Positions 20,905 through 61,286 of a DNA stretch of 64,000 nt are shown piece after piece. The stretch comes from Micromonospora rhizosphaerae (GTDB lineage Bacteria; Actinomycetota; Actinomycetes; Mycobacteriales; Micromonosporaceae): positions 6,324,001-6,388,000 of the forward strand of contig NZ_FMHV01000002.1 of the NCBI RefSeq assembly GCF_900091465.1, written 5' to 3'. The notes under the pieces were generated by a model. The model was not told the origin of the DNA. It searched no databases and saw nothing but the letters and a program-made list of their open reading frames with translations. The translations under genes were made by a program, and so were the position numbers. How positions within the stretch are numbered: the first letter of the stretch is position 1; the number at the start of each line of letters is the position of its first letter.

Positions 20905-22152
20905 TCAAGCAGCGGCCTCGTTGAGGTGATGCGACCAGGCGGTCGCCTCGTCGTAGAGCGCGCCGGTTTTGAGGCATCCGTGCAGGATGCCGACGAGCCG
21001 GTTGGCGAGTTGCCGCAGCGCGGCGTTGTAGCTGGCGCCGCGGGCGCGTTGCCGGTCGTAGTAGGCGCGGGCGCCGGGCGAGGTGTTCAGCGACGCGAAC
21101 GCTTGGGTCATCAGCGCGTCGATGAGCCGGTCGTTGTGCACGAACCGGGCAGCGACGGTGCGTTTCTTACCCGAGGCGCGGGTGATCGGGCTGGTGCCGG
21201 CGTAGTTCTTGCGGGCCTTGGCCGAGGTGTAGCGGTCGGCCGCGTCGCCGAACTCGGCGAGCACCCGGGCGCCGAGGATCGTGCCCAGTCCCGGTTGGGA
21301 CAGGATGATCTCAGCGTCCGGGTGCTGGCCAAAATAGGCCTCGACCTGCCCTTGCAGGGCCTTGACCTGCTCGTTGAGCGTGCCCAGGACCGCGATCAGC
21401 GCCCGGACCGAGGCGGCGTAGGCGGCGGTGACCACGGCGGGCTGGCTGAGGTGCTCGGCGCGCAGGACGGCCTGAATCGCTGCGGCCTTGGCCGGGATGT
21501 CGCGGCGGCGGGCCCGTTTGAGGGCCGCGCTGATCTGGCTGATGCTCAGCCTCGCGGCGCTGGCCGGGTCCGGGGCCCTGGCCAGCAACTCAAGGGTGTC
21601 GGCGGCGTCGAGATCGTCAAACGCGGCCAACGCGGCAGGGAAGTACTCCCGCAACGCGTGCCGCAACCGCTGGCTGGCGCGGGTGCGTTCCCAGATCAGT
21701 GTCTTGTGCATCCGGGCGACCACCTTGACCGCCTCGGATCCGGCACTGTCACCGGCGACCCGGCGCAGTTGGTGGCCGTCGGTACGGACCATGTCGGCCA
21801 GCATGTGCGCGTCGGCGGCGTCGCTCTTGGCACCGGACACCCCGAGACGGTCACGGTAACGGGCCGCCTGCAACGGATTGACCGCCAACACGGTGTACCC
21901 CGCCGCGATCAACGCCTGCACCCACGGCCCTCGGTCGGTCTCGATCCCAATCGTGACCTGCCCGGCGCCGTCGGCGTCCTCGCCGAGCTGCGCGCCGATC
22001 ATCGCGTGCAGTCGCGTGATCCCTGCGACGCCCTCGGGCAACCTGGCCCTGGCCAGGGTGCGCCCAGCCGCATCCATCAACTCAACGTCGTGATGGTCTT
22101 CGGCCCAGTCATCTCCCACGAACAGCACCGCGTCTCCCGCCTCCGATCGCAA
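20905..22152 (-). CDS. IS110 family transposase (DEDD recombinase)
   Basis: 415 residues. The N-terminal RuvC-like DEDD domain shows Asp in FVGDDWAEDHHDVEL, Glu in IGIETDRGPW and Asp in GAKSDAADAHMLAD. A coiled middle follows, then the C-terminal Transposase_20 domain with SQPGLGTILGARVLAEFGD and YAGTSPITRASGKK, which includes the catalytic serine. It appears intact and full length. IS110 enzymes of this type use a non-coding bridge RNA from the element to choose target and donor. Confidence 0.9.
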   Translation of the reverse strand: MRSEAGDAVLFVGDDWAEDHHDVELMDAAGRTLARARLPEGVAGITRLHAMIGAQLGEDADGAGQVTIGIETDRGPWVQALIAAGYTVLAVNPLQAARYRDRLGVSGAKSDAADAHMLADMVRTDGHQLRRVAGDSAGSEAVKVVARMHKTLIWERTRASQRLRHALREYFPAALAAFDDLDAADTLELLARAPDPASAARLSISQISAALKRARRRDIPAKAAAIQAVLRAEHLSQPAVVTAAYAASVRALIAVLGTLNEQVKALQGQVEAYFGQHPDAEIILSQPGLGTILGARVLAEFGDAADRYTSAKARKNYAGTSPITRASGKKRTVAARFVHNDRLIDALMTQAFASLNTSPGARAYYDRQRARGASYNAALRQLANRLVGILHGCLKTGALYDEATAWSHHLNEAAA

Positions 22153-22378: not shown

Positions 22379-22420
22379 AGGGGCCCCCTGTTAACGCCTC
22401 GTGCATCGCAGGGGGCCCCT
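22379..22420. terminator. Strong hairpin with T-tract, probable repeated intergenic element
   Basis: A perfect 12-base stem (22379-22390 against 22409-22420) with an 18-base loop is followed by TTTT on the plus strand. It lies between the IS element and the 3' end of the esterase gene. Similar AGGGGCCCC hairpins ending in TTAAC are, from memory, common between genes in Micromonospora. Confidence 0.75.
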
Positions 22421-23826: not shown

Positions 23827-25650
23827 GTGCCGTCCTCCCCGTCCGTGACCACCGGTCCGTCGCCCGCGTCCCCGCCCGTCACCCGGGACCGTCGCGCCGA
23901 CCTGATCGTGGCGGTGGCCGCGCTGGCCCTGGCGGGCTGGGTCACCAGCGGGCTGTGGTGGGACCCGAACCGCCGGGCGATCACGGTCAACTCCAGCGAC
24001 CAGGCGCTCTTCGAGTGGCTGCTGGCCTTCGGCGGGCACGCGCTCACCCACGGGGAGAACCCGTTCTTCACCCACTTGATCAACGTCCCGGACGGGGTCA
24101 ACCTCGCGGTCAACACCTCGATCACCGTGTACGCGGGGGTCTTCGCGCCGCTGACCTATCTGATCGGGCCGCCCGCGACGTTCCTGGTGATCCTTACCCT
24201 CAACCTGGCCGCCACCGCACTGACCTGGTACTGGTTGCTCAGCCGACACCTGGTCCGCAGCCGGCTCGCGGCCGGGGCGGGGGCGCTTTTCATCGCCTAC
24301 TGCCCGGCGATGGTGTCGCACGCCAACGCCCACCTGAACTGGACCGCGGGCTGGCTGGTGCCGCTGCTGATCTGGGGTGTCTTCCGGCTGCGCCGCCCGG
24401 GCAACGCGATACGCGGCGGCATCCTGCTCGGTGTGCTGGTGGCGATCGCCTTCTCGATCGCCGCCGAGGGGCTCTTCTTCACCGCGCTCGCGATCGCCCT
24501 CTTCCTCATCGTCTGGGCCCTGCACCCGGCCCGGCGCGCCGAGGTACGCGCCGCGCTGCCCGCCTTCCTGCGCGGGCTCGGCGTGACCGCGCTGGTCGCG
24601 GGGGTGTTGCTGGCGTACCCGCTCTGGCTGCACTTCGCCGGGCCGCAACGCTTCCACGGCACCGGCTTCGACCCGCTGATCCACTCCGAGGACATCGCCG
24701 CCTACGGGTCGTACCCGCGCCGGTCGCTGGCCGGGTGGGCCGGGCTGGGCACCTCGCTCGCGCCGAACCCGACCGAGGAGAACTCCTTCTTCGGCATCCC
24801 GCTGCTGCTGCTCGCGGTCGCCTGTTTCGGGCTGCTCTGGCGGCGGGCCGACCGGGCGTTCCGGGCCACGCTCCTGGCGCTGGGCGTCACCGCCGTCGTT
24901 TTCGCGGTGCTCTCCTGGGGGCCGAGGGCCAAGTGGCACGGCCGGCGCACGGACCAGTTGCTGCCGTTCGGGGTGCTCGACAACCTGCCGGTGGTCAACG
25001 CCGCGCTGCCCTCCCGGCTGGCGCTGGTGGTGGCGCCGGTGATCGGGCTGCTGCTCGCGTACGCGGTGGAACGGCTGCGCGCCGAGCCGCCCCGGCACCG
25101 CTCGACCGAGCTGGCCTGGACGCTCGGCTTCGCGGCCGCGCTGCTGCCGCTGCTGCCCACCCCGCTGCTGACCAGCGTCCGTGAGCCGATCCCGAGGTTC
25201 ATCACCGCCGGCACCTGGAAGCAGCACGTCTCCCCCGGCGGCGTGCTCACCCCGCTGCCGCTGACCATCGACGTCACGCCGGACGGCCAGCGCTGGCAGG
25301 CGTACGCCCTGGCCCACCGGCAGGGCGAGTTCCGCATCCCGGCCGGCTTCTTCCTCGGCCCCGGCGGCCCGGACGGCCGGGGCCGGATCGGGCCGCCGCC
25401 GCGCACCTTCGACTCGCTCATGGACCAGGCCGGGCGGACGAAGCTGGTCCCGATCATCACCGACGGCAGCATCAAGCAGTCCCTGACCGACCTGCACTAC
25501 TGGAAGGTCGAGGCGGTGGTCCTGCCGGACCGGGTGCACGGCGCCAAGTACGACGTCGACGAGGAGGCCCTGCGCCGCACCGCCACCGCCCTCCTCGGCC
25601 CGCCGCAACGCATCGACGACGTCTGGCTCTGGAAGGTCCCCCCACCCTGA
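23827..25650 (+). CDS. Large integral membrane protein, GT-C glycosyltransferase-like
   Basis: 607 residues with about eleven to thirteen hydrophobic helices and a C-terminal extracytoplasmic domain of about 150 residues. After the first helix, ITVNSSDQALFEWLLAFGGH is followed by NPFFTHLINVPDGVNL, a layout shared by actinobacterial membrane proteins often annotated as glycosyltransferases. No catalytic residue can be assigned with certainty. It ends 56 bases before lipB. Confidence 0.65.
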   Translation: MPSSPSVTTGPSPASPPVTRDRRADLIVAVAALALAGWVTSGLWWDPNRRAITVNSSDQALFEWLLAFGGHALTHGENPFFTHLINVPDGVNLAVNTSITVYAGVFAPLTYLIGPPATFLVILTLNLAATALTWYWLLSRHLVRSRLAAGAGALFIAYCPAMVSHANAHLNWTAGWLVPLLIWGVFRLRRPGNAIRGGILLGVLVAIAFSIAAEGLFFTALAIALFLIVWALHPARRAEVRAALPAFLRGLGVTALVAGVLLAYPLWLHFAGPQRFHGTGFDPLIHSEDIAAYGSYPRRSLAGWAGLGTSLAPNPTEENSFFGIPLLLLAVACFGLLWRRADRAFRATLLALGVTAVVFAVLSWGPRAKWHGRRTDQLLPFGVLDNLPVVNAALPSRLALVVAPVIGLLLAYAVERLRAEPPRHRSTELAWTLGFAAALLPLLPTPLLTSVREPIPRFITAGTWKQHVSPGGVLTPLPLTIDVTPDGQRWQAYALAHRQGEFRIPAGFFLGPGGPDGRGRIGPPPRTFDSLMDQAGRTKLVPIITDGSIKQSLTDLHYWKVEAVVLPDRVHGAKYDVDEEALRRTATALLGPPQRIDDVWLWKVPPP

Positions 25651-25694
25651 GGGCGGTGAGGCGGCTCACGGGGGGCGGCGAGGGCGGGCGGGTC

Positions 25695-25706
25695 TAGGCT
25701 GGTGCC
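25695..25706 (+). promoter_or_regulatory. Leaderless-type -10 box of lipB
   Basis: TAGGCT (25695-25700) lies 6 bases before the lipB GTG. Confidence 0.5.
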
Positions 25707-26354
25707 GTGAGTGTGACGACTTCCGGGCTGACCGCCGTGCACGCCGGTCTGCTCGACTACCAGAGCGCGTGGGACGAGCAGCGGCGGCTGCACGAGGCCG
25801 TGGTGGCCGGCGAGCAGGGCGACACCGTGCTGCTGCTGGAGCATCCCAGCGTCTACACGGCGGGCAAGCGCACCGAGCCGTGGGACCGCCCGATGGACGG
25901 CACCCCGGTGATCGACGTGGACCGGGGCGGCAAGATCACCTGGCACGGCCCCGGGCAGCTCGTCGGCTACCCGATCGTCAAGCTCCCCGACCCGGTGGAC
26001 GTGGTCGCGTACGTCCGGCGCACCGAGCAGATGCTGATCGACGTCTGCGCCGAGTTCGGGCTGGCCGCCGGCCGGATCGAGGGGCGCAGCGGCGTCTGGG
26101 TGCCGGAGGACGACCGGGGGCCGGCCCGCAAGGTGGCGGCCATCGGCATCCGGGTGGCCCGCGGGGTGACCCTGCACGGCTTCTCGATCAACTGTGACTG
26201 CGACCTGACGTACTTCGACCGGATCGTGCCGTGCGGCATCCGCGACGCGGGCGTCACCTCGCTGACCGCCGAGCTGGGCCGCCCGGTCGCCGTCGCCGAC
26301 GTGCTCCCGGTGGTCGAGCGCCACCTGCCGACCCTGATCACGGTGGAAGCCTGA
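25707..26354 (+). CDS. lipB: Lipoyl(octanoyl) transferase LipB
   Basis: 215 residues. LipB moves the octanoyl group from acyl carrier protein to the lipoyl domains of SucB-type enzymes. The family signature [19 protein letters not shown] is intact; the catalytic pair is Cys176 (VPCGIRDAG) and Lys142 (ARKVAAIG). It leads a short operon: the VOC gene starts 3 bases after its stop and nadE follows. LipA, the next enzyme in the pathway, lies at 29395. Confidence 0.95.
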
Positions 26355-26357
26355 CGG

Positions 26358-26750
26358 GTGCGGATCGATCTCGTCACCCTCGTCGTCGCGGAGTACGACC
26401 CGGCCATCGACTTCTTCACCGAGGTGCTCGGCTTCGAACTGGTCGAGGACAAGCCGTCGCTGACCAACGACGGCCGCCCGAAGCGCTGGGTGGTGGTCCG
26501 CCCGCCGGGCGCGCAGACCGGCCTGCTGCTGGCCCGCGCCGACGGCGAACGGCAGCAGGCCGTGGTCGGCGACCAGGTCGCCGGCCGGGTCGGCTTCTTC
26601 CTCCGGGTCGACGACTTCGAGGCCGCCTACCGGCGGATGCGCGAGGCGAACGTCGAGTTCGTGAAGCCCCCGCGCACCGAGCCCTACGGCCGGGTCGCGG
26701 TCTTCCGCGACATCGAGGGCAACCCCTGGGACCTGCTCGGCCCCGCCTGA
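26358..26750 (+). CDS. VOC family protein (glyoxalase/bleomycin-resistance fold)
   Basis: 130 residues with paired beta-alpha-beta-beta-beta modules: VTLVVAEYDPAIDFFTEVLGF in the first and FRDIEGNPWDLL in the second. The metal and substrate are not readable. It is translationally close to lipB (3-base gap) and 18 bases before nadE, so it belongs to the same transcript. Confidence 0.84.
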   Translation: MRIDLVTLVVAEYDPAIDFFTEVLGFELVEDKPSLTNDGRPKRWVVVRPPGAQTGLLLARADGERQQAVVGDQVAGRVGFFLRVDDFEAAYRRMREANVEFVKPPRTEPYGRVAVFRDIEGNPWDLLGPA

Positions 26751-26768
26751 CCCCCGGAAGGACCCCCG

Positions 26769-27650
26769 ATGACCGACGTGATGTCGACGCAGCAGCAGAT
26801 CGCCGACGAACTCCAGGTGACCGCCACCTTCGACGCGCACCAGGAGATCGAGCACCGAGTCGTCTTCCTCGCCGACCGCCTGGTCGACACCGGGCTGACG
26901 GCGCTGGTCCTGGGCATCAGCGGCGGAGTGGACTCCACCACCGCCGGCCGGCTCTGCCAGCTCGCGGCCGAACGCGCCCGCGCCGCCGGCCACCCGGCCA
27001 TCTTCGTCGCGATGCGACTGCCGTACGGCGTGCAGGCCGACGAGCACCACGCCCAGGCGGCGCTGGAGTTCATCCGGGCCGACCGGGTGCTGACGGTAGA
27101 CGTCAAGCCGGCCAGCGACGCCGCCCTGGACGCACTGGTGGCCGGCGGGCTGACCTTCCGGGACGCCGCCCAGCAGGACTTCGTGCACGGCAACATCAAG
27201 GCCCGGCAGCGCATGATCGCCCAGTACGCGGTGGCCGGGGCGATGGACGGGCTGGTCGTCGGCACCGACCACGCCGCCGAGGCGGTCACCGGCTTCTTCA
27301 CCAAGCACGGCGACGGCGCGGCGGACGTCGTACCGCTGACCGGGCTGACCAAGCGTCGGGTGCGGGCGATCGCCCAGGCGCTCGGCGCTCCCGCCGAACT
27401 GGTCGGCAAGGCGCCCACCGCCGACCTGGAGAGCCTGGCCCCGGGCCGGCTCGACGAGGACGCCCTCGGCCTGGCGTACGAGCACATCGACGACTACCTG
27501 GAGGGCCGGCCGGTCCCGACGGAGGTCGAGCAGGCGCTGGTCGCCCGCTACCGGGCCACCGACCACAAGCGGTGCCTCCCGCTCGCGCCGTTGGGTGCGG
27601 GCCCGGCCGGGGATCCGGTCACGGTTCGGGCTTCCGGCCGCTCGCGCTGA
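26769..27650 (+). CDS. nadE: NH3-dependent NAD+ synthetase
   Basis: 293 residues. It has only the synthetase domain: P-loop GISGGVDSTT at residues 49-58, MRLPYGVQADE, VVGTDHAAEAVTGFFTKHGDGAAD and TKRRVRAIAQALGAP. This matches the E. coli-type enzyme (about 275 residues), which amidates deamido-NAD with free ammonia. A second, glutamine-dependent synthetase is at 52458. The C-terminus (VTVRASGRSR) is slightly extended. Confidence 0.92.
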   Translation: MTDVMSTQQQIADELQVTATFDAHQEIEHRVVFLADRLVDTGLTALVLGISGGVDSTTAGRLCQLAAERARAAGHPAIFVAMRLPYGVQADEHHAQAALEFIRADRVLTVDVKPASDAALDALVAGGLTFRDAAQQDFVHGNIKARQRMIAQYAVAGAMDGLVVGTDHAAEAVTGFFTKHGDGAADVVPLTGLTKRRVRAIAQALGAPAELVGKAPTADLESLAPGRLDEDALGLAYEHIDDYLEGRPVPTEVEQALVARYRATDHKRCLPLAPLGAGPAGDPVTVRASGRSR

Positions 27651-27662
27651 TCCGGGCCCGCA

Positions 27663-27688
27663 ACCAGGGCTCCGGTGGCCACCCTGGT
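27663..27688. terminator. Small hairpin between convergent nadE and aspS
   Basis: ACCAGGG and CCCTGGT (7 bases each) enclose a 12-base loop containing GGTGGCCACC. It lies between two convergent stops 45 bases apart. Confidence 0.4.
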
Positions 27689-27694
27689 CTGCGG

Positions 27695-28981
27695 CTACGG
27701 CGTCAGCCGGTGCAGATCGCGGGGGAAGGCGGTGACCTCGCGGACGTTGGCCGCGCCGGTCAGCCGGGCGACGAAGCGTTCCAGCCCGATGGCGAAGCCG
27801 CCGTGCGGCGGCATGCCGTGCCGGAAGGCGTCCACATAGCCGGCGTACGGCTCGACCGGCTCGCCGCGCGCGGCGAGCGCGGCCAGGTAGTCGTCGTACC
27901 GGTGCAGCCGCTGCCCGCCGGTGACCAGCTCCAGCCCCCGGAACAGCAGGTCAAACCCGTTGGAGTACGCCGGCCGGGCCGGGTCCGGGTGGGTGTAGAA
28001 GGGCCGCTTCGCCATCGGGTACCCGGTGACGAAGAGGAAGTCGGAGCCGTGCTCCTTCCGGGCCCACTCCCCCAGCGCCCGCTCGTGAGCCGGGGCGAGG
28101 TCCGGCTCGTCGGCCGGCGCCCCGGCGATCTTCAGCGCCTCGGTGAAGTGCACGGTGGGGATCTCGGCGGGCACCTCCGGGGCGGTCACCCCGAGGGTGG
28201 CCAGCGCCGCCCCGGCGCGGTCGCCGACCGCGTCCAGCATCCCGGCGAGGGTGTCCCGCAGCACGCGCATCACGTCCCGGTGGTCGGTGATGAAGCCCAG
28301 TTCGACGTCGAGCGAGGTGTACTGGGCCAGGTGCCGGACGGTGTCGTGCGGCTCGGCCCGGAACACCGGCCCGACCTCATAGACCCGTTCGAAGACGCCG
28401 ACCATGAGCTGCTTGTAGAACTGCGGTGACTGCGCGAGGTACGCGGGCCGGCCGAACCAGTCCAGCGCGAAGACATTGGCTCCGCTCTCGGTGGACGAGG
28501 CGACCACCTTCGGGGTGTGGATCTCCACGAAGTCGTGGGCGTCCAGGGCGGCCCGGAACCCGGCCACACTCGCCGCCGAGATGCGCAGCGCCGCCGACCG
28601 CGACGGGTGGCGCAGCGCGGTCGGGGCGTTGTCCAGCTGGGTGGGCAGGGTCGCGGTGAGCGCCGGCCGGTACAGGTCGAACGGGGGCGGGACGGCGGGC
28701 GCGCCGAGCGGTCGTACCGCCGGGTCGGTGAGCTCGACCCCGGCGGGCGCGGTGTCGTTCGCGACCACCGTGCCGGTGACCTCGATGACGCTCTCCTCGG
28801 TGAGCTGCTCCAGCTCGGCGCGGGCGGCCGGGTCGGTGACCACCACCTGGGCCAGGCCCGCGGCGTCCCGCACGATCAGGAAGGCCACCGACTTGAGCAG
28901 CCGGCGGCGGTGCACCCAGCCGGCGACCCGCACGGTCTCGCCGACATGGGCGGTGAGCTGGGTGGAAAGGATGCGTTGCAC
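27695..28981 (-). CDS. aspS: Aspartate--tRNA ligase, archaeal/nondiscriminating type
   Basis: 428 residues, much shorter than the 580-600-residue bacterial AspRS because it lacks the GAD insertion. An N-terminal OB-fold anticodon domain (VGETVRVAGWVHRRRLLKSV) is followed by the class II core. Motif 2 is FRAEPHDTVRHLAQYTSLDVE and motif 3 is GGFAIGLERFV. This archaeal-type enzyme often charges both tRNA-Asp and tRNA-Asn. The GTG at 28981 has GGAGG 8 bases upstream. A T-box leader with an aspartate specifier lies in the 5' region. Confidence 0.9.
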   Translation of the reverse strand: MQRILSTQLTAHVGETVRVAGWVHRRRLLKSVAFLIVRDAAGLAQVVVTDPAARAELEQLTEESVIEVTGTVVANDTAPAGVELTDPAVRPLGAPAVPPPFDLYRPALTATLPTQLDNAPTALRHPSRSAALRISAASVAGFRAALDAHDFVEIHTPKVVASSTESGANVFALDWFGRPAYLAQSPQFYKQLMVGVFERVYEVGPVFRAEPHDTVRHLAQYTSLDVELGFITDHRDVMRVLRDTLAGMLDAVGDRAGAALATLGVTAPEVPAEIPTVHFTEALKIAGAPADEPDLAPAHERALGEWARKEHGSDFLFVTGYPMAKRPFYTHPDPARPAYSNGFDLLFRGLELVTGGQRLHRYDDYLAALAARGEPVEPYAGYVDAFRHGMPPHGGFAIGLERFVARLTGAANVREVTAFPRDLHRLTP

Positions 28982-29257
28982 GGCGGTTACCTCCTCGATC
29001 AATCGCAACGCGATCCCCGGGAGGTGTGGGCGAGCGGGTCCTCGCGGTGCCACCACACCTTCGCCCCCCGCGTCAGCGGGGAGCCTCGTTCGTCGCCTGG
29101 TAACCGGGGCCAGCCGGGCGGGCTCTACTGGGCGCGGGCGCCGTTCTTCCCGCAGCTCGGGAGGGTCTTCGCGCGCCGGGACCAGACCGCCTCGCAGCAA
29201 CCGGCGGCTCTCTGGACTGGCGGGACCGGTGCGCTACTCGGCTCCGTCGTCGCTGTT
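28982..29257 (-). promoter_or_regulatory. T-box riboswitch (tRNA-Asp specific), translational type
   Basis: Read on the minus strand, Stem I has GACGACGGAGCCGAGTA, the AGAGAGC bulge and a GGTTGCTG loop. The 5' AGTA and 3' GAAGAC are joined by a GCGC-CCGG/CCGG-GCGC helix. The specifier after GAA is GAC (29167-29165), an Asp codon. The T-box core TGGCACCGCGA is at 29052-29042 and is closed by AGGTGTGG/CCACACCT. An alternative helix pairs CCTCC and GATC with GATC and GGAGG, masking the aspS ribosome-binding site. Uncharged tRNA-Asp should therefore switch translation on. Confidence 0.85.
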
Positions 29258-29263
29258 GCCGAG

Positions 29264-29269
29264 ACCGTA
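29264..29269 (-). promoter_or_regulatory. -10 box of the T-box/aspS transcript
   Basis: TACGGT (minus strand) lies about 7 bases before the start of Stem I, placing the transcript start near 29257. It is divergent from the lipA promoter. Confidence 0.5.
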
Positions 29270-29381
29270 GCACCCGATCGCCGTGCGTGTGACGCCGATA
29301 TTTCGCCGCTGGTGTCCGGTGTCACATGGTCTGGGGCGTGACGCCGGTCGCCCGAGGTCCATCGACGGCCACCGTCGGGCG

Positions 29382-29394
29382 TAGGCTCGGCCTT
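29382..29394 (+). promoter_or_regulatory. Leaderless-type -10 box of lipA
   Basis: TAGGCT (29382-29387) lies 7 bases before the lipA GTG. Confidence 0.5.
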
Positions 29395-30384
29395 GTGACG
29401 ATCGAGCACTCCGCGCCGAAGACTGAGCAGCCTGCGCGCACCGCGACGGTCGCCCCCGAGGGGCGGCGGATGCTGCGAATCGAGGCGCGCAACGCCGAGA
29501 CGCCGATCGAGCGCAAGCCGCCGTGGATCAAGGTCAAGGCCAAGATGGGGCCGGAGTACACCCAGCTGCGCGGGCTGGTCTCGCGCGAGGGGCTGCACAC
29601 CGTCTGCCAGGAGGCCGGCTGCCCCAACATCTACGAGTGCTGGGAGGACCGGGAGGCCACCTTCCTCATCGGTGGCGACCAGTGCACCCGGCGCTGCGAC
29701 TTCTGCCAGATCGACACCGGCAAGCCGGCCGAGTTCGACGCCGACGAGCCCCGCCGGGTCGCCGAGTCGGTCGCCGCGATGGGCCTGCGCTACGCCACCA
29801 TCACCGGCGTCGCCCGCGACGACCTGCCCGACGGCGGCGCCTGGCTCTACGCCGAGACGGTCCGGCAGATCCACGCCCTGCAGTCCGGCTGCGGCGTCGA
29901 GCTGCTGATCCCCGACTTCAACGCGATCCCCGAGCAACTCGCCGAGGTGTTCAGCTCCCGGCCGGAGGTGCTCGCGCACAACGTCGAGACGGTGCCGCGG
30001 ATCTTCAAGCGGATCCGACCGGCGTTCCGCTACGAGCGCTCGCTGGACGTGATCCGGCAGGCCCGCGCCGCCGGGCTGGTCACCAAGAGCAACCTGATCC
30101 TGGGCATGGGCGAGGAGCGGGCCGAGGTCTCCCAGGCGCTGCGCGACCTGCACGAGGCCGGCTGCGAGCTGATCACCATCACCCAGTACCTCCGCCCCTC
30201 CCCCCGGCACCACCCGGTCCTCCGCTGGGTCAAGCCGGAGGAGTTCGTCGAGCTGCGCGAGGAGGCCGAGGAGATCGGCTTCGCCGGCGTGATGAGCGGG
30301 CCGCTGGTGCGCTCGTCGTACCGGGCCGGGCGGCTCTACCGGCAGGCCCTGGAGGCCCGCGAGGCGGTCACCACCGCCGGCTGA
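29395..30384 (+). CDS. lipA: Lipoyl synthase LipA
   Basis: 329 residues. LipA is a radical SAM enzyme that inserts two sulfurs into octanoyl groups. The auxiliary cluster cysteines are Cys71, Cys76 and Cys82 ([12 protein letters not shown]); the radical SAM cluster is Cys97, Cys101 and Cys104 (CTRRCDFC). A C-terminal [12 protein letters not shown] supplies the family's conserved serine. The GTG at 29395 is chosen over an upstream in-frame start because of the TAGGCT box 7 bases before it and the family length. Confidence 0.95.
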
Positions 30385-30443
30385 GCCGGCCAATCCCGTG
30401 TCACCGGCCGTCCGCCGGTGCTCCGGATGCCATGATCACGGGC

Positions 30444-32024
30444 ATGACCGCGGGGGTACGCCAGGAGCCGCGCGAGGCCAGAGGCCCGCGCACGCCCCGG
30501 CGTCCCCGGCTGCCGGTGCTGTTCACCCTGCTCGCCGCCCTCGCCGGGGTCGGCTACCGGCTAGCCCTGCTGCTGGCGGACGCCCCGCCGACCAACAGCG
30601 ACGAGGCGACGATGGGGCTCGCCGCCCTGCACATCGCCCGCGGCCAGGAGTTCCCGGTCTGGTTCTACGGCCAGGCGTACATGGGGACGCTGGAGGCGTA
30701 CCTGGCCGCACCGGTCTTCGCGGTGGCCGGGCCCTCGGTGCTCGCGCTGCGGCTGCCCACCCTCGCGCTCTACGCGCTCTTCCTCGCCCTGATCTGGCGG
30801 CTGACCCGGCGACTCGGCGGGGACCGGTGGTTCGCCCTGCTGGTCGTCGGCTTCCTCGCCCTCGGCTCGGACCGGATCGTCAAGAACCAGTTGATCGCCG
30901 GTGGCGGCTACCCCGAGCTGAACCCGGCCGGCGTCGGCCTCGCCCTGCTCACCCTCGACCTCTGCGCCGGGCGGCCGGGAGCCCGACTGACCCGCTGGGC
31001 GGCCTGGGGGCTGATCTCCGGGTTGATGATCTGGGTCGACCCGCTGCTGCTGCCGTACATCGTCGCGACCGGCGTGGTGCTGATGGTGTGGCGCCGGCGA
31101 GAGCTGGCCGGCCGCGCCGGCCTGGTGGTCGGCGCCGCGACCCTGCTGGGGGCGGCACCGATGCTGCTGGACAGCGTCCGGCACGGGCGCAACCCCCTGG
31201 CGGCCGTCCTGGCCGCCGGCGGCGGGGACGCGGCGGCCGGTTGGGGCGAGCGGCTGCACGGCGGGCTGGTGCTCGGGCCGTCGCTGGGCATGGGCCTCTG
31301 CGCGCCGAACCACTGCGCCACCTGGCAGCTCTGGTGGGCGGCGGTGTTCCCGATCCTGCTCGTCCTCGCCGCCTGCACCGCCTGGCACACCCTCCACGAC
31401 CGTCCGGTCTCGGTCACGGACGGGGCGCGGGCGGCGGTGCGGCTCGCGCTGGTGCTGGCGGCGGCGGCGGTGCTCGGGGCGTACACGGTCAGCAGCGCGG
31501 CCGGGCGGACCCCGATGGAGAGCGCCCGTTACCTCTCCTGCCTGGCGATCGCCACGCCGGCCCTGCTCTGGCCGCTCTGGGCGGCGGCGCGCCGCCGGTC
31601 GGCCGCCCGGATCGTCGCGGTGGCCGTGCTGGCGGCCCTGCTCGGCACGGCCGCCGTCGCCACCCACGGCGCGGTCGGCACCGTGCCGGCCACCCACGCC
31701 GAGGCCGCCCGGCACCGCGCGCTGGTCGACACCCTGCGGCAGCTCGCCGTACGGCAGGTACGAGGGGGCTACTGGACCTGCAACCGGCTCACCTTCGCCA
31801 GCGGCGAGGACGTGGTCTGCGCGGTGGTCGACGACGAGCTGCGGCCGGGCCACGACCGCTACCCGGCGTACCGGCGGGCGGTGGAGCGGGCCGCCGCCCC
31901 GGCCTGGGTCGCCCCCGCGGGCTCACCGCTTGCCGCCCGCCTCGATCACCGCCTGGGACCGAAACCCGGCGACCTGAAGCTGGTCACGATCGACGGCTGG
32001 CGCATCTACGTGCCGCGCGGCTGA
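30444..32024 (+). CDS. Integral membrane protein, glycosyltransferase 39-like
   Basis: 526 residues. Early segments TNSDEATMGLAALHIARGQE and FPVWFYGQAYMGTLEAY match the first-loop pattern of GT-C/GT39-type mannosyltransferase-like proteins, where an acidic residue after the first helix is catalytic (Asp/Glu in SDEA). About eleven helices follow, then a C-terminal domain ending in the WRIYVPRG fold edge. An ATG at 30432 is an alternative start. Its 3' end overlaps the convergent LuxR-type gene by 19 bases. Confidence 0.72.
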   Translation: MTAGVRQEPREARGPRTPRRPRLPVLFTLLAALAGVGYRLALLLADAPPTNSDEATMGLAALHIARGQEFPVWFYGQAYMGTLEAYLAAPVFAVAGPSVLALRLPTLALYALFLALIWRLTRRLGGDRWFALLVVGFLALGSDRIVKNQLIAGGGYPELNPAGVGLALLTLDLCAGRPGARLTRWAAWGLISGLMIWVDPLLLPYIVATGVVLMVWRRRELAGRAGLVVGAATLLGAAPMLLDSVRHGRNPLAAVLAAGGGDAAAGWGERLHGGLVLGPSLGMGLCAPNHCATWQLWWAAVFPILLVLAACTAWHTLHDRPVSVTDGARAAVRLALVLAAAAVLGAYTVSSAAGRTPMESARYLSCLAIATPALLWPLWAAARRRSAARIVAVAVLAALLGTAAVATHGAVGTVPATHAEAARHRALVDTLRQLAVRQVRGGYWTCNRLTFASGEDVVCAVVDDELRPGHDRYPAYRRAVERAAAPAWVAPAGSPLAARLDHRLGPKPGDLKLVTIDGWRIYVPRG

Positions 32025-34921
32025 GGCACACCCGCGGGGTCCCGCTCCAGGAGGCCGAGGCGGTGGGCCAGGGCGGCGGCCTCGACCCGGTTGCTGACGT
32101 CGAGCTTGGCGATGATCCGCGAGACGTGCACGCTGGCCGTCTTCGGCGAGATGAAGAGCTGCTCGGCGATCCGGCTGTTGCTGTGCCCCTCGGCGACCAG
32201 CCGCAGCACCTCCTGCTCACGGGAGGTGAGCAGGTCGGGGCCGGGGCGGCCCCCGCCCCGCAGCCCGACCCGGCGGGCCAGGGTGGCGGCCTGCTCGGCG
32301 AGCGGCCGCGCGCCGAGCCGGTCGGCGATCTCCCCGGCCTCCCGCACCGCCGAGGCCACCGTGTCCCGCTCCCCCGCGGCGGCGGCCGCCTCGGCCAGCC
32401 CGAGCAGCGCCCGACCCAGCGGGTACGGCTGCCCGTTCGCCCGCCACCCGTCGACCGCCGCCCGCCAGGCGGGCAGCGCCGTGCCGCCGGCCGCCAGGAT
32501 CGCGGTGACCTGGGCGGCGTGCGCCCGTTCCGCCGGATAGCGGACGGGCAGGGCGGCGGCCATCGTAAACACCTCGGCGGCGAGGTCGGCGTCCGCGACC
32601 AGCGCGGCGGTACGGGCGACGGCGCTGAGCACGGGCCACCCCTCTCGGGGCTGCTCGGGCAGGCGCTCGTCGGCCAGAGCGGTACGGGCCGCCCGCACCG
32701 CCTCGACCTTGTCGTCCGCCGCCAGCGCGGCCTCGATTCGCAGCTCGTGCAGCGGAAGCCGGTGGTTCGGCCAGAGGTACGGCCGGGCGAGGAAGGCCAG
32801 CGCGCGGCTGACCAGCTCGTCGGCGGCCGGGTGCGCCCGGGCCAGCCGCAGCCCGGCCCGCAGCTGGAGCCAGTGCAGGCCGGAGACCCCGGGCGGGTCG
32901 ATTCGGGCCGCCTCGGCGCAGGCCCCGTCGGCCTCGTCCCAGCGCCCCAGCGCGATCAGCGCCTCGGCCCGGTTCGACAGCAGGTACGCCCCCGTGGAGC
33001 GGCTGATCCCGACCCGGCGCGCCTCGGTCACCCCGGCGGCGGCCGCCTCCTCCGACTCGGCGTAGCGGCCCAGCTCGAAGAGCACGTCGGAGAGGTGGAC
33101 GAGCGCGCTGACCAGCGCCGGCGCGTTGCCCTCCGCGCGGCCCCGGGCCTCCGCCCGGCGCAGCTCGGCCAGCCCCAGGTCGGGGGTCTTGTCGGCGCGG
33201 CAGAGCAGGGCGATCCGCAGCAGCGCCACGTCCTCGCCGCGCGCTTCGGCGGCGGCTATCGCCTCCGCGGCGACCGGGGCGGCCTGCTCCGAATCGACCT
33301 TCATCAGGTACGCCGCGATGTCGGCGAGAAGCCCGACCCGCTCCCGCCCGTCCGGCACCCCGGCGGCCAGCCGGTACGCCTCGCGCAGCTCGGCGGCGCC
33401 GTCGCTCTTGCCGAGCACGGCCAGCAGCCGACCCCGGCGGGCCAGCAGCCGGGCGGCGCGCAGCGGCTCGGCGTCGGTGTCCACCTCGGCCAGCGCGGCC
33501 CGGGTGAGGGTGACCGCGCGGCTGTAGTCCCCGGCGGTGGTCGCCGCGTCGAGCGTCTCCTCCAGCACCCGGAGGTGGTCCATGCCCAGCCGGTCGGCGG
33601 CGTCCGGCACCAGCTCCCAGAGCTCCAGCACCCGTTCCAGCAGCCGGCTCTGCTCCGCGTACGCGTACCGGTCGGCGGCCGCGCAGGCCGCGGCGCGGGC
33701 GGTGACCAGGGCCCGGCGGTGGTCGTGCGCGGCGTACCAGTGGTGGGCGATCTCGGCCGGGGCGCGGCCGGCGGCCACCAGGTGCGGCTGCGCCTCGATC
33801 GCGGCGGCGTACCGGGCGTGCAGCCGGGCGTGCTCACCGGGCAGCAGCTCGTCGTGGACGGCCTCGCGGACGAGGGCGTGCCGGAACTCGTAGTCGCCGT
33901 CCGGGTCGGCCACCACGAGCTGAGCGGCCACGGCGGAGCGGAGCGCGTCCTCCAGCTCGTGCTCGGGCAGGCCGGCGACCTCGGCGAGGAGCTGATGGGC
34001 GAAGCGGGTGCCGCCGGCGGCGGCGATCCGCAGCACCCGCTGGGCCGGCTCGGGCAGCCGGTCGACGCGGGCGAGCAGCAGGTCCCGCAGGGTCTCCGGC
34101 AGCGCGGCGCAGCCGACCGGGTTGCCGGCGGCGGCCAGTTCCTCAATGAAGAAGGGGTTGCCCTGGGTCCGAGTGTGGACGTCGTCGACGGCCCGGGCGG
34201 CGGGTTCCCCGCCGAGCAGGTCGGCCAGGATCGCGGCGGTGCCGTCCCGGTCGAGCCGGCCCAGCTCGACCCGCTCGACGCCCCGGGCCCGGTCCAGCTC
34301 GGCGAGGAACGGGCGCAGCGGGTGGCCGCGGTGCAGCTCGTCGGTGCGGTAGGTGCAGATCAGCAACAGCCGGGCGGACCGGGCCGCCCGGACCAGGAAG
34401 CCGATCAGGTCCCGGGTGGACCGGTCGGCCCAGTGCAGGTCCTCGATCATCAGCACCAGCGGCTGCCCGGTGGCGATCCGCTGGAACAGGTCGGCGACCA
34501 GGTCGAACAGGTAGCCGCGCGGAGTGTCCGTCACGGGCAGGCCGGTGGGTGCCGCGACGCCGGCCGGCACTCGGGCCAGCTCGGGCAGCAGCCGGGCGAA
34601 CTCCGCCTCGTACCCCTCGAAGACGCCCGGGCCGTCGCGGCGCAGCACCTCGCGCAGCGCGGCGGCGAACGGCGCGAAGGGCAGGCCGGCCTCGCCCAGT
34701 TCGAGGCACTGGCCGACCAGCACCCGGGCTCCGGCGTCGGTGGCCAGGACGCCGAACTCCTCCAGGAGCCGGGTCTTGCCGACGCCGGCCTCCCCGCCGA
34801 CCAGGACGGTGGTGGGCTCCCCGGCGCGGGCCCGGCCGAGCGCGTCGCGCAGCGCCGCCACCTCGGGCTGGCGGCCGACGAGGACGGTGCTGGCGGCGCG
34901 TACGGTCACGGCATCGAGCAT
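32006..34921 (-). CDS. LuxR family regulator with AAA ATPase domain (LAL type)
   Basis: 971 residues: Walker A GGEAGVGKTR near residues 43-52, Walker B LVLMIEDLHW near 160, a long tetratricopeptide-like helical region, and a C-terminal LuxR helix-turn-helix (LTSREQEVLRLVAEGHSNSR). LAL regulators activate catabolic or secondary-metabolite genes in response to ATP and a ligand. An in-frame GTG at 35140 overlaps the stop of the upstream 56-residue gene (GTGA) and would add a 73-residue Pro/Ala-rich extension. I prefer the ATG at 34921. The target is unknown. Confidence 0.85.
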   Translation of the reverse strand: MLDAVTVRAASTVLVGRQPEVAALRDALGRARAGEPTTVLVGGEAGVGKTRLLEEFGVLATDAGARVLVGQCLELGEAGLPFAPFAAALREVLRRDGPGVFEGYEAEFARLLPELARVPAGVAAPTGLPVTDTPRGYLFDLVADLFQRIATGQPLVLMIEDLHWADRSTRDLIGFLVRAARSARLLLICTYRTDELHRGHPLRPFLAELDRARGVERVELGRLDRDGTAAILADLLGGEPAARAVDDVHTRTQGNPFFIEELAAAGNPVGCAALPETLRDLLLARVDRLPEPAQRVLRIAAAGGTRFAHQLLAEVAGLPEHELEDALRSAVAAQLVVADPDGDYEFRHALVREAVHDELLPGEHARLHARYAAAIEAQPHLVAAGRAPAEIAHHWYAAHDHRRALVTARAAACAAADRYAYAEQSRLLERVLELWELVPDAADRLGMDHLRVLEETLDAATTAGDYSRAVTLTRAALAEVDTDAEPLRAARLLARRGRLLAVLGKSDGAAELREAYRLAAGVPDGRERVGLLADIAAYLMKVDSEQAAPVAAEAIAAAEARGEDVALLRIALLCRADKTPDLGLAELRRAEARGRAEGNAPALVSALVHLSDVLFELGRYAESEEAAAAGVTEARRVGISRSTGAYLLSNRAEALIALGRWDEADGACAEAARIDPPGVSGLHWLQLRAGLRLARAHPAADELVSRALAFLARPYLWPNHRLPLHELRIEAALAADDKVEAVRAARTALADERLPEQPREGWPVLSAVARTAALVADADLAAEVFTMAAALPVRYPAERAHAAQVTAILAAGGTALPAWRAAVDGWRANGQPYPLGRALLGLAEAAAAAGERDTVASAVREAGEIADRLGARPLAEQAATLARRVGLRGGGRPGPDLLTSREQEVLRLVAEGHSNSRIAEQLFISPKTASVHVSRIIAKLDVSNRVEAAALAHRLGLLERDPAGVPQPRGT

Positions 34922-60242: not shown

Positions 60243-61286
60243 TCAGCCGGCGGCCTTCCGGATGCTCCCCGGCTTGATGGTCGATCGGCCGGCGACCACT
60301 CGCTTACCAGGGGGCTTCCGGGCGGCGACGCTCCGCTTGGTGGTGGCGGTGGAGGTGCTTGTCCCGGCCGCCCGGCGCGTTGCGGTCGACGCCGCGGGTG
60401 TCGCCTTCTTCGCCGCCGCCTTGCGAGTAGCGGTCGACGAGGTACCGGTGGCCTTCTTCACGGGTGCCCTCGTCGCCGCGGCCTTCCGGGCGCCGGCGGT
60501 GGGCCGGGTCGTCGCGGCCTTCTTGGCGGTCGCCTTCTTCGCCGGGGCCTTCTTCGCTGCCGTGGTCTTCTTCGCCGCCGCGCCGGTCTTCTTGACCGTG
60601 GCGGTCGTCTTCTTGGCCGTGGCGGTGACCTTGCGGGCGCCCGCGGTCTTGGCGGGCGCCTTCTTCGCGGGCGCCTTCTTCGCGGGCGCCTTCTTCGCGG
60701 GCGCCTTCGCGGCCACCTTCTTGGCCGGCGCCTTCTTCGCGGCGGCCTTCGTGACCGGCCCCTTCTTCGCAGGCGCCTTCCTCGCCGCCGTGGTCTTCTT
60801 GGCTGCCGCCTTCTTGGCCGGCGCCTTCTTCGCGGCGGCCTTCGTGGCCGGCGCCTTCTTCGCGGGCGCCTTCCTCGCCGCCGTGGTCTTCTTCGCGGGC
60901 GCCTTCTTGGCGGGCGCCTTCCTCGCGGCCGTGGTCTTCTTGGCTGCCGCCTTCTTGGCCGGCGCCTTCTTCGCGGCGGCCTTCGTGGCCGGCGCCTTCT
61001 TCGCGGTTGCCTTCTTCGCGGGCGCCTTCTTCACGGTGGCCTTCGTGACGGGGGCCTTCGTCGCGGCGGTCCTGGTCGCCGCGGCCTTCTTGGCGACCGC
61101 CGTCTTCGCCGGAACCCGACCGGCGCCGGCGCCGGAGGCGTTCGCGGACGCCCTGGTGACCGTCGCCTTCCTCACCGTGCCGGGCCGGCGCGCCGCAGCG
61201 GTCCGGGTCGCGCTCGCGGCGGCGGTCTTCTTCGCGGTCGTACGTCTGGCGGCCGGGCGGGTGGTGGCCTTTTGTGCTTCGGCCAT
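60243..61286 (-). CDS. Histone H1-like, Lys/Ala/Pro-rich nucleoid protein
   Basis: 347 residues made almost only of Ala, Lys, Pro, Thr and Arg, with dozens of PAKKA/TAAKK units. It resembles eukaryotic H1 C-terminal tails and bacterial HupB/H1-like tails. There is no folded HU domain. It likely binds and compacts DNA. A 141-base direct duplication (start 60780 and 60921) shows recent internal expansion. The plus-strand frame of this region is only its antisense shadow. The ATG at 61286 follows GGGAAC. Confidence 0.83.
60780..61007. repeat. 141-base offset direct duplication within the H1-like gene
   Basis: An ~86-base segment at 60780 recurs at 60921 with about one mismatch, a 47-codon step. 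It encodes [17 protein letters not shown] units and is prone to slippage. Confidence 0.7.

Follow-up and report, generated by a model that had tools for sequence, protein, structure and literature searches.

Introduction

Earlier surveys reported actinobacterial T-boxes on ileS (PMC1262725, PMC2494555), and those of the translational type (PMC1262725; Sherwood 2015 via PMC7583486) share the T-box core with the aspS2 leaders described below and, as these appear to, have a helix that masks the Shine-Dalgarno (SD) sequence and no terminator; some of them also have a short Stem I with the specifier in its apical loop, as some aspS2 leaders seem to. A few translational T-boxes with a long Stem I have been recorded (PMC7583486). 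The aspS2 leaders differ from the translational ileS elements in being matched to Asp rather than Ile, in that 65 of 90 carry a long Stem I, recognized by AGAGA plus GAAGAC, and in having G-C rather than G-U as the basal pair of helix A2.

Two further systems are relevant. In Firmicutes, too, Asp T-boxes are found on one of several aspS genes, as in Clostridium acetobutylicum, where one of three aspS genes has such an element (PMC2494555), and GAC is the usual Asp specifier, with a frequency of 0.94 in TBDB (PMC7778990). These elements belong to a different phylum and are presumed to be of the terminator type. Glycine-type T-boxes (glyQ/glyQS) lack Stem II; they share a long Stem I, the missing Stem II, and a purine after the specifier with 26 of the aspS2 leaders, which are distinguished by their Asp specificity, their apparently translational mode, and the G-C pair at the base of A2. 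On the side of the enzyme, the archaeal-type, nondiscriminating AspRS2 of Thermus and Deinococcus (1n9w; PMC4206432) belongs to the same sequence family, has the same H and P residues, and coexists with a bacterial AspRS, whereas the Micromonospora gene appears to be T-box controlled and its genome is without an AsnRS. In the literature searched we found no actinobacterial Asp T-box described; TBDB covered Actinobacteria with its class II model (PMC7778990) and may list the leader. As far as we searched, the replacement of G-U by G-C in aspS2 T-boxes and the restriction of C after the specifier to leaders with Stem II are new.

Results and discussion

A T-box leader ahead of a second aspS gene

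The window, a stretch of 64,000 nucleotides from Micromonospora rhizosphaerae, contains on its minus strand a leader of about 275 nt (29256-28982, by reading of the sequence) ahead of the GTG start of aspS2 at 28981. Very probably this leader is a T-box riboswitch specific for tRNA-Asp, and the translation that it controls is that of a second AspRS, of the archaeal type. The features are as follows.

29264..29269, minus strand: candidate -10 box TACGGT, directly before the leader (sequence read)
29155..29254, minus strand: Stem I, long form (Rfam match, alignment, covariation), with base GC/GC and GGAG/CTCC and the GA (K-turn) motif, an AGTA/GAA specifier loop, and a double T-loop tip
29254-29242, minus strand: AGCGACGACGGAG (sequence read)
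29238-29235, minus strand: AGTA (sequence read)
29209..29213, minus strand: AGAGA, in 75/80 leaders, consensus as in PMC7583486, section 6
29192..29196, minus strand: second T-loop TGCGA (UGxRA), in the GGTTGCTGCGA loop (sequence read)
29170-29165, minus strand: GAA followed by the specifier GAC (Asp, 29165..29167); the next base, 29164, is C
29118..29153, minus strand: Stem II with S-turn (GAAGAA / AGTAGA), by reading; missing in part of the family
29096..29117, minus strand: candidate Stem IIA/B pseudoknot (CCGG/CCGG and CTGG/CCAG), pairing inferred from the sequence
29063..29084, minus strand: Stem III, flanked by the purine string GAACG (29091-29087) and AA (29061-29060)
29023..29059, minus strand: antisequestrator, with helix A1 (29059-29053/29029-29023) and helix A2 (29045-29041/29034-29030)
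29052-29046, minus strand: antisequestrator bulge TGGCACC, the 7-nt UGGNACC between A1 and A2
29045 and 29030, minus strand: base pair G29045-C29030 at the base of A2, G-C in place of G-U
28989..29025, minus strand: sequestrator, ACCTCC (29025-29020) with GGAGGT (28994-28989), inner hairpin 29014-29002
28989..28995, minus strand: Shine-Dalgarno AGGAGGT (sequence read), conserved in alignment A2
27695..28981, minus strand: aspS2, archaeal-type AspRS of 428 aa, GTG start (28981-28979)

Every element that the initial annotation had named for a T-box leader was found on the minus strand. Stem I has a GAC specifier that fits the AspRS gene, and a UGGNACC bulge lies between A1 and A2. The Asp specifier after GAA is present as claimed, and GAAGAC recurs in 75 of 80 related leaders. 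In leaders L011-L013 the candidate -10 position is occupied by the hexamer TAGCGT.

The covariance model search proposed for the leader gave a divided result. RF00230 matches 29259-29023 over the full model (1-219) with 49.9 bits and an E value of 4.8e-10 in 501 bases (cmscan), or 1.6e-9 on a whole-genome basis, but the gathering score is 93 bits, about twice that of the leader, and a default Rfam scan of the window lists no T-box here because the score lies below this cut-off. A T-box match at an E value of 0.01 or better was obtained in 100 of 121 Micromonosporaceae genomes and a match above the gathering score in none of the 121, those on ileS included; 29 of 159 genomes in the phylum have a match above it. 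The sub-cut-off score is a property of Micromonosporaceae T-boxes. We rejected the reading of a missing Rfam match as absence of a T-box, the core being present in 19 of 20 matchless aspS2 leaders that were fetched.

Conservation and covariation

The related set consisted of 80 aspS2 leaders, the best 80 of 199 loci in a scan of named genomes. The strict core GTGGNACCNCG occurs in 78 of them, and in 79 if one wobble is allowed, and AGAGA plus GAAGAC in 75. These counts are the unbiased ones; the rows of alignment A1 were picked for AGAGA plus GAAGAC and those of alignment A2 by the core pattern, so that the invariance of those motifs in the two alignments follows from the choice of rows. UGxRA played no part in the picking of rows, and all 51 rows of A1 have it after AGAGA. 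None of the five leaders without AGAGA plus GAAGAC has a long Stem I: in three from Micromonospora (L064, L079, and L089) a TTAAGAAGGGGCCC-like repeat hairpin stands in place of Stem I, in a fourth (L031, also Micromonospora) both Stem I and the core have been lost to the repeat hairpin, and in L092 Stem I is much shortened. The repeat-hairpin leaders are a natural loss of the sensor. In L014 this TTAAGAAGGGGCCC-like hairpin was seen within the Stem II region.

For Stem I we aligned 50 of the 75 leaders, at less than 92% identity, together with the window; 96.6% of cells are paired and both sides have changed in 12 of 25 pairs, a level reached in 0 of 500 shuffles. Among 35 leaders with short spacing, Stem III, A1, and A2 have 97.7% of cells paired and changes on both sides in 8 of 21 pairs, a level reached by a single one of 500 shuffles; seven of the eight covarying pairs lie in Stem III (7/9 of its pairs), one in A1, and none in A2, which is invariant among the 35, and the number of further pair types in Stem III and the antisequestrator is no better than in shuffles (90/500). 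The sequestrator is likewise well paired, in 93.2% of cells against 31-63% when slid and in 96.7% for its outer helix, within which no both-side changes were seen; they are confined to the inner hairpin (2/11 pairs), where shuffles do as well. The SD can hardly change, and sequestrator pairing is therefore the weaker evidence. Folding energy was rejected as evidence, since the full leader does no better on it than shuffles (z +0.47); the 3' part gives z -1.21, and the sequestrator is part of the minimum free energy (MFE) fold there.

Distribution and reduced forms

AspRS2 (E 1e-60 or better) is encoded in 92 of 121 Micromonosporaceae genomes, and in 66 of the 92 an Rfam T-box match lies no more than 600 bases upstream of the gene and on its strand. 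We read 90 of the 92 leaders, leaving out two gene pieces (G034 and G123). The core is kept in 89 of the 90, of which 65 have a long Stem I, 23 a short one, and 1 a specifier with AGAGA not found; the remaining leader is without the core. An archaeal-type AspRS at E 1e-80 was found in 9 of 296 sampled phylum genomes, two of them of the window's own genus, and in the seven phylum relatives outside the family no T-box core is present in about 420 bases upstream of the AspRS gene. In L141, another phylum member, an archaeal-type AspRS gene without T-box core directly follows an adenylation/carrier-protein gene (function by reading) and is a possible self-resistance copy. The expectation that actinobacterial T-boxes mostly serve ileS held good; 20 other family T-boxes, fetched from 75 listed, all precede ileS-like open reading frames (ORFs), and 10 of 10 tested ORFs exceed the ileS cut-off. 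At two further loci (L193 and L194) a Stem I-like Rfam match precedes an ileS-like ORF, and the UGGNACC core is unreadable, with GGTTCAC instead.

The 23 short leaders, which are without the long Stem I, all contain TGAC(G/A), a motif present in 17% of shuffled segments. Many of them present TGAC in a small hairpin loop, and throughout the 23 GAC seems to belong to such a hairpin, although the hairpin finder favored another one in G143 and in several members of groups g28 and g52. By pattern search the Stem II S-turn is kept in 5 of the 23 (G038, G068, G090, G103, and G109) and missing in 18. Any tRNA sensing by these 18 would have to do without both the elbow contact and Stem II; alternatively, the 18 may be decaying.

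AspRS2 and its genome context

The description of the enzyme as an archaeal-type AspRS was borne out: AspRS2 (428 aa) scores 541 bits against NF003483 (PRK05159), the cut-off of which is 353, and some of its residues resemble those of a relative that is nondiscriminating. This relative, AspRS2 of T. thermophilus (1n9w), is the nearest solved structure and is filed as non-discriminating; the two enzymes have in common an H and a P, which are replaced by W and K in the archaeal enzyme 1b8a. The H and P, which we take to be marks of nondiscriminating AspRS, are each retained in 88 of 90 family AspRS2 proteins. With the nondiscriminating model TIGR00458, the score was 342.9, below the cut-off of 368.4. 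The genome encodes a second AspRS, of the bacterial type (644 aa), as do 119 of 121 family genomes in all, and GatB; a profile search found no AsnRS above cut-off. Asn-tRNA is therefore presumably made through Asp-tRNA-Asn, and with a bacterial-type AspRS and GatB present and no AsnRS, AspRS2 looks like a second enzyme induced by tRNA-Asp and is probably nondiscriminating.

A reading compatible with this one, which we consider possible but rather doubtful, is that AspRS2 serves chiefly as a reserve enzyme resisting AspRS inhibitors, with the T-box as its alarm. A divergent second AspRS copy under apparent charging control, alongside the bacterial AspRS, would suit such a role, as would the T-box-free gene of L141 behind its adenylation/carrier-protein gene; the Micromonospora aspS2, however, sits by nadE, lipB, and lipA, and no biosynthetic cluster appears among the ORFs in 24000-34000.

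Probable translational control and its alternatives

We suggest that the GUC anticodon of uncharged tRNA-Asp would pair with the GAC specifier while its elbow contacts the double T-loop at the Stem I tip and its GCCA end pairs with the UGGC bulge. The bound tRNA would hold the antisequestrator, the SD would be freed, and more AspRS2 would be made; with Asp-tRNA, the ACCUCC/GGAGGU helix could form and less AspRS2 would result. AspRS2 may in addition charge tRNA-Asn, for GatCAB. The binding of tRNA, the switch and its direction, and the charging of tRNA-Asn are all inferred, the tRNA itself fitting well: the tRNA-Asp gene at L147 has the anticodon GUC and the discriminator G and is complementary to GAC and to the UGGC bulge, which reads UGGC in 73 of 89 family aspS2 leaders and UGGU in 16. 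A cluster of 11 tRNA genes at L146 (G000:C2, about 2.66 Mb) includes a second tRNA-Asp-like gene and a gene with a four-base gttg anticodon.

By reading, no U-run follows the leader hairpins in the window or in 23 further leader ends, and the absence of a visible terminator, together with a helix complementary to the SD, points to translational control. The pairing partner of the SD is the antisequestrator's 3' arm, and the MFE, or default, fold of the 3' region contains the sequestrator. The calculated switching is slight. Between the two states, the unpaired probability of the SD rises from 0.42 to 0.58 in the window and, as a median over 80 leaders, from 0.47 to 0.58, with a gain above 0.3 in 8 of the 80; forcing the antisequestrator has a median cost of 0 kcal/mol, and in the nearest-neighbor model the states are about equal without tRNA. 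The helix masking the ribosome-binding site, as initially annotated, is thus present and conserved but shows little covariation and weak calculated switching, and a translational switch is plausible on this modeling. About 34 extra bases, with another hairpin, precede the start codon in 33 of 79 related leaders (L019 and L021, for example), and in 30 of these 33 longer-spaced leaders the SD is AGGAG, not AGGAGGT.

We consider it quite improbable that the T-box acts by transcription attenuation or mRNA decay instead of by masking the SD. A long Stem I with a double T-loop is typical of transcriptional T-boxes, although a few translational ones have it too (PMC7583486, section 16), and the calculated exposure of the SD is nearly unchanged between states; against these points stand the lack of a U-run behind any leader hairpin that was read and the retention of the SD complement, with the outer helix paired in 96.7% of cells and the whole sequestrator paired well above the slid controls. 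Translational control by tRNA-Asp remains our preferred reading. The notion that the leader also senses tRNA-Asn, which shares the discriminator G and whose GUU anticodon could form a G-U pair with the first specifier base, is very improbable, since GAC fully pairs only with GUC, three Watson-Crick pairs are the rule in T-boxes (PMC7583486, section 6), GAAGAC is kept in 75 of 80 leaders and TGAC in 23 of 23 short family leaders, and no AAC specifier was read in the five exceptions among the 80, all of them without a long Stem I. The initial proposal of Asn sensing is accordingly not upheld, and any link to Asn is indirect, through the probable charging of tRNA-Asn by AspRS2.

The basal pair of helix A2

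The G-U pair at the base of A2 has been described as a conserved, steric sensor that rejects 3'-aminoacyl tRNA (PMC7583486). In the family aspS2 leaders this pair is G-C in 87 of 89 and G-U in 2, both in one genus (G084 and G104), whose third member has G-C; on the tree this is one change. In a first set, whose species overlap with those of the 89, all 99 leaders parsed of 101 had G-C, and we dropped the claim of an invariant G-C once more genera were included. The parser takes any pair; the row pattern fixed much of the 5' strand and left the 3' C free. The ileS T-boxes have G-U in 25 of 25 cases (22 from the family and 3 from other families of the order), and base composition is an unlikely cause of the G-C pair, as the same family's ileS elements keep G-U. 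Among T-boxes of far actinobacterial relatives, 22 parsed of 30 gave G-U in 17, A-U in 4, and G-C in 1, with the eight unparsed ones read as U by eye; the A-U and G-C cases mean that G-U is not obligatory.

It is an unlikely, and here tentative, interpretation that the aspS2 T-boxes form a class in which the amino acid gate has been rebuilt, with the G-U sensor nearly fixed as G-C, and the sensor shrunk stepwise. Were the gate rebuilt, charged Asp-tRNA would meet weaker rejection, or rejection by no more than the purines of Stem III, and a graded reading of tRNA-Asp would take the place of a sharp charged/uncharged switch. The stepwise shrinkage would have taken place within this one gene family and led to forms that lack both the double T-loop and Stem II.

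The base after the specifier and Stem II

In T-boxes with a long Stem I, the base that follows the specifier is reported to be a purine stacked on the codon-anticodon pairs, a need that Stem II lessens (PMC7583486). This base is C in the window; of the 51 rows of alignment A1, 42 have C and 9 have A. GAAGAC is readable in 66 family leaders, of which 37 combine C with Stem II, 26 have A and no Stem II, 3 have A and Stem II, and none has C without Stem II; the named set comprises 66 leaders with C and Stem II and 9 with A and no Stem II. In the family aspS2 leaders, C follows the specifier only where Stem II exists. Stem II was called by a spacing of more than 95 bases, with one leader read per genus and G139, which has an insert, set to "no Stem II" by hand; the S-turn pattern was discarded as a means of calling it after conflicting with the spacing in 13 long rows. 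On a tree built from frames taken by tblastn, the link between Stem II and the next base rests on 3 independent supported pairs (7 on all branches) and is not significant (p 0.25), because three pairs are too few. For a single gene of a single specificity, then, T-boxes with a long Stem I, others that lack Stem II, and strongly reduced ones together offer a natural series on domain roles. Such variants make testable both the A2 G-U pair as aminoacyl sensor and the idea that Stem II relaxes the demand for a purine next to the specifier.

Two minor observations concern the rest of the window. Positions 22381-22394 and 61020-61033 match the end of the TTAAGAAGGGGCCC-like repeat with two mismatches, a weak signal (0.16 matches expected, two in 1 of 100 shuffles), and Rfam places an Ms_AS-4 sRNA at 21217-21298 on the plus strand, with 64.7 bits against a cut-off of 50.
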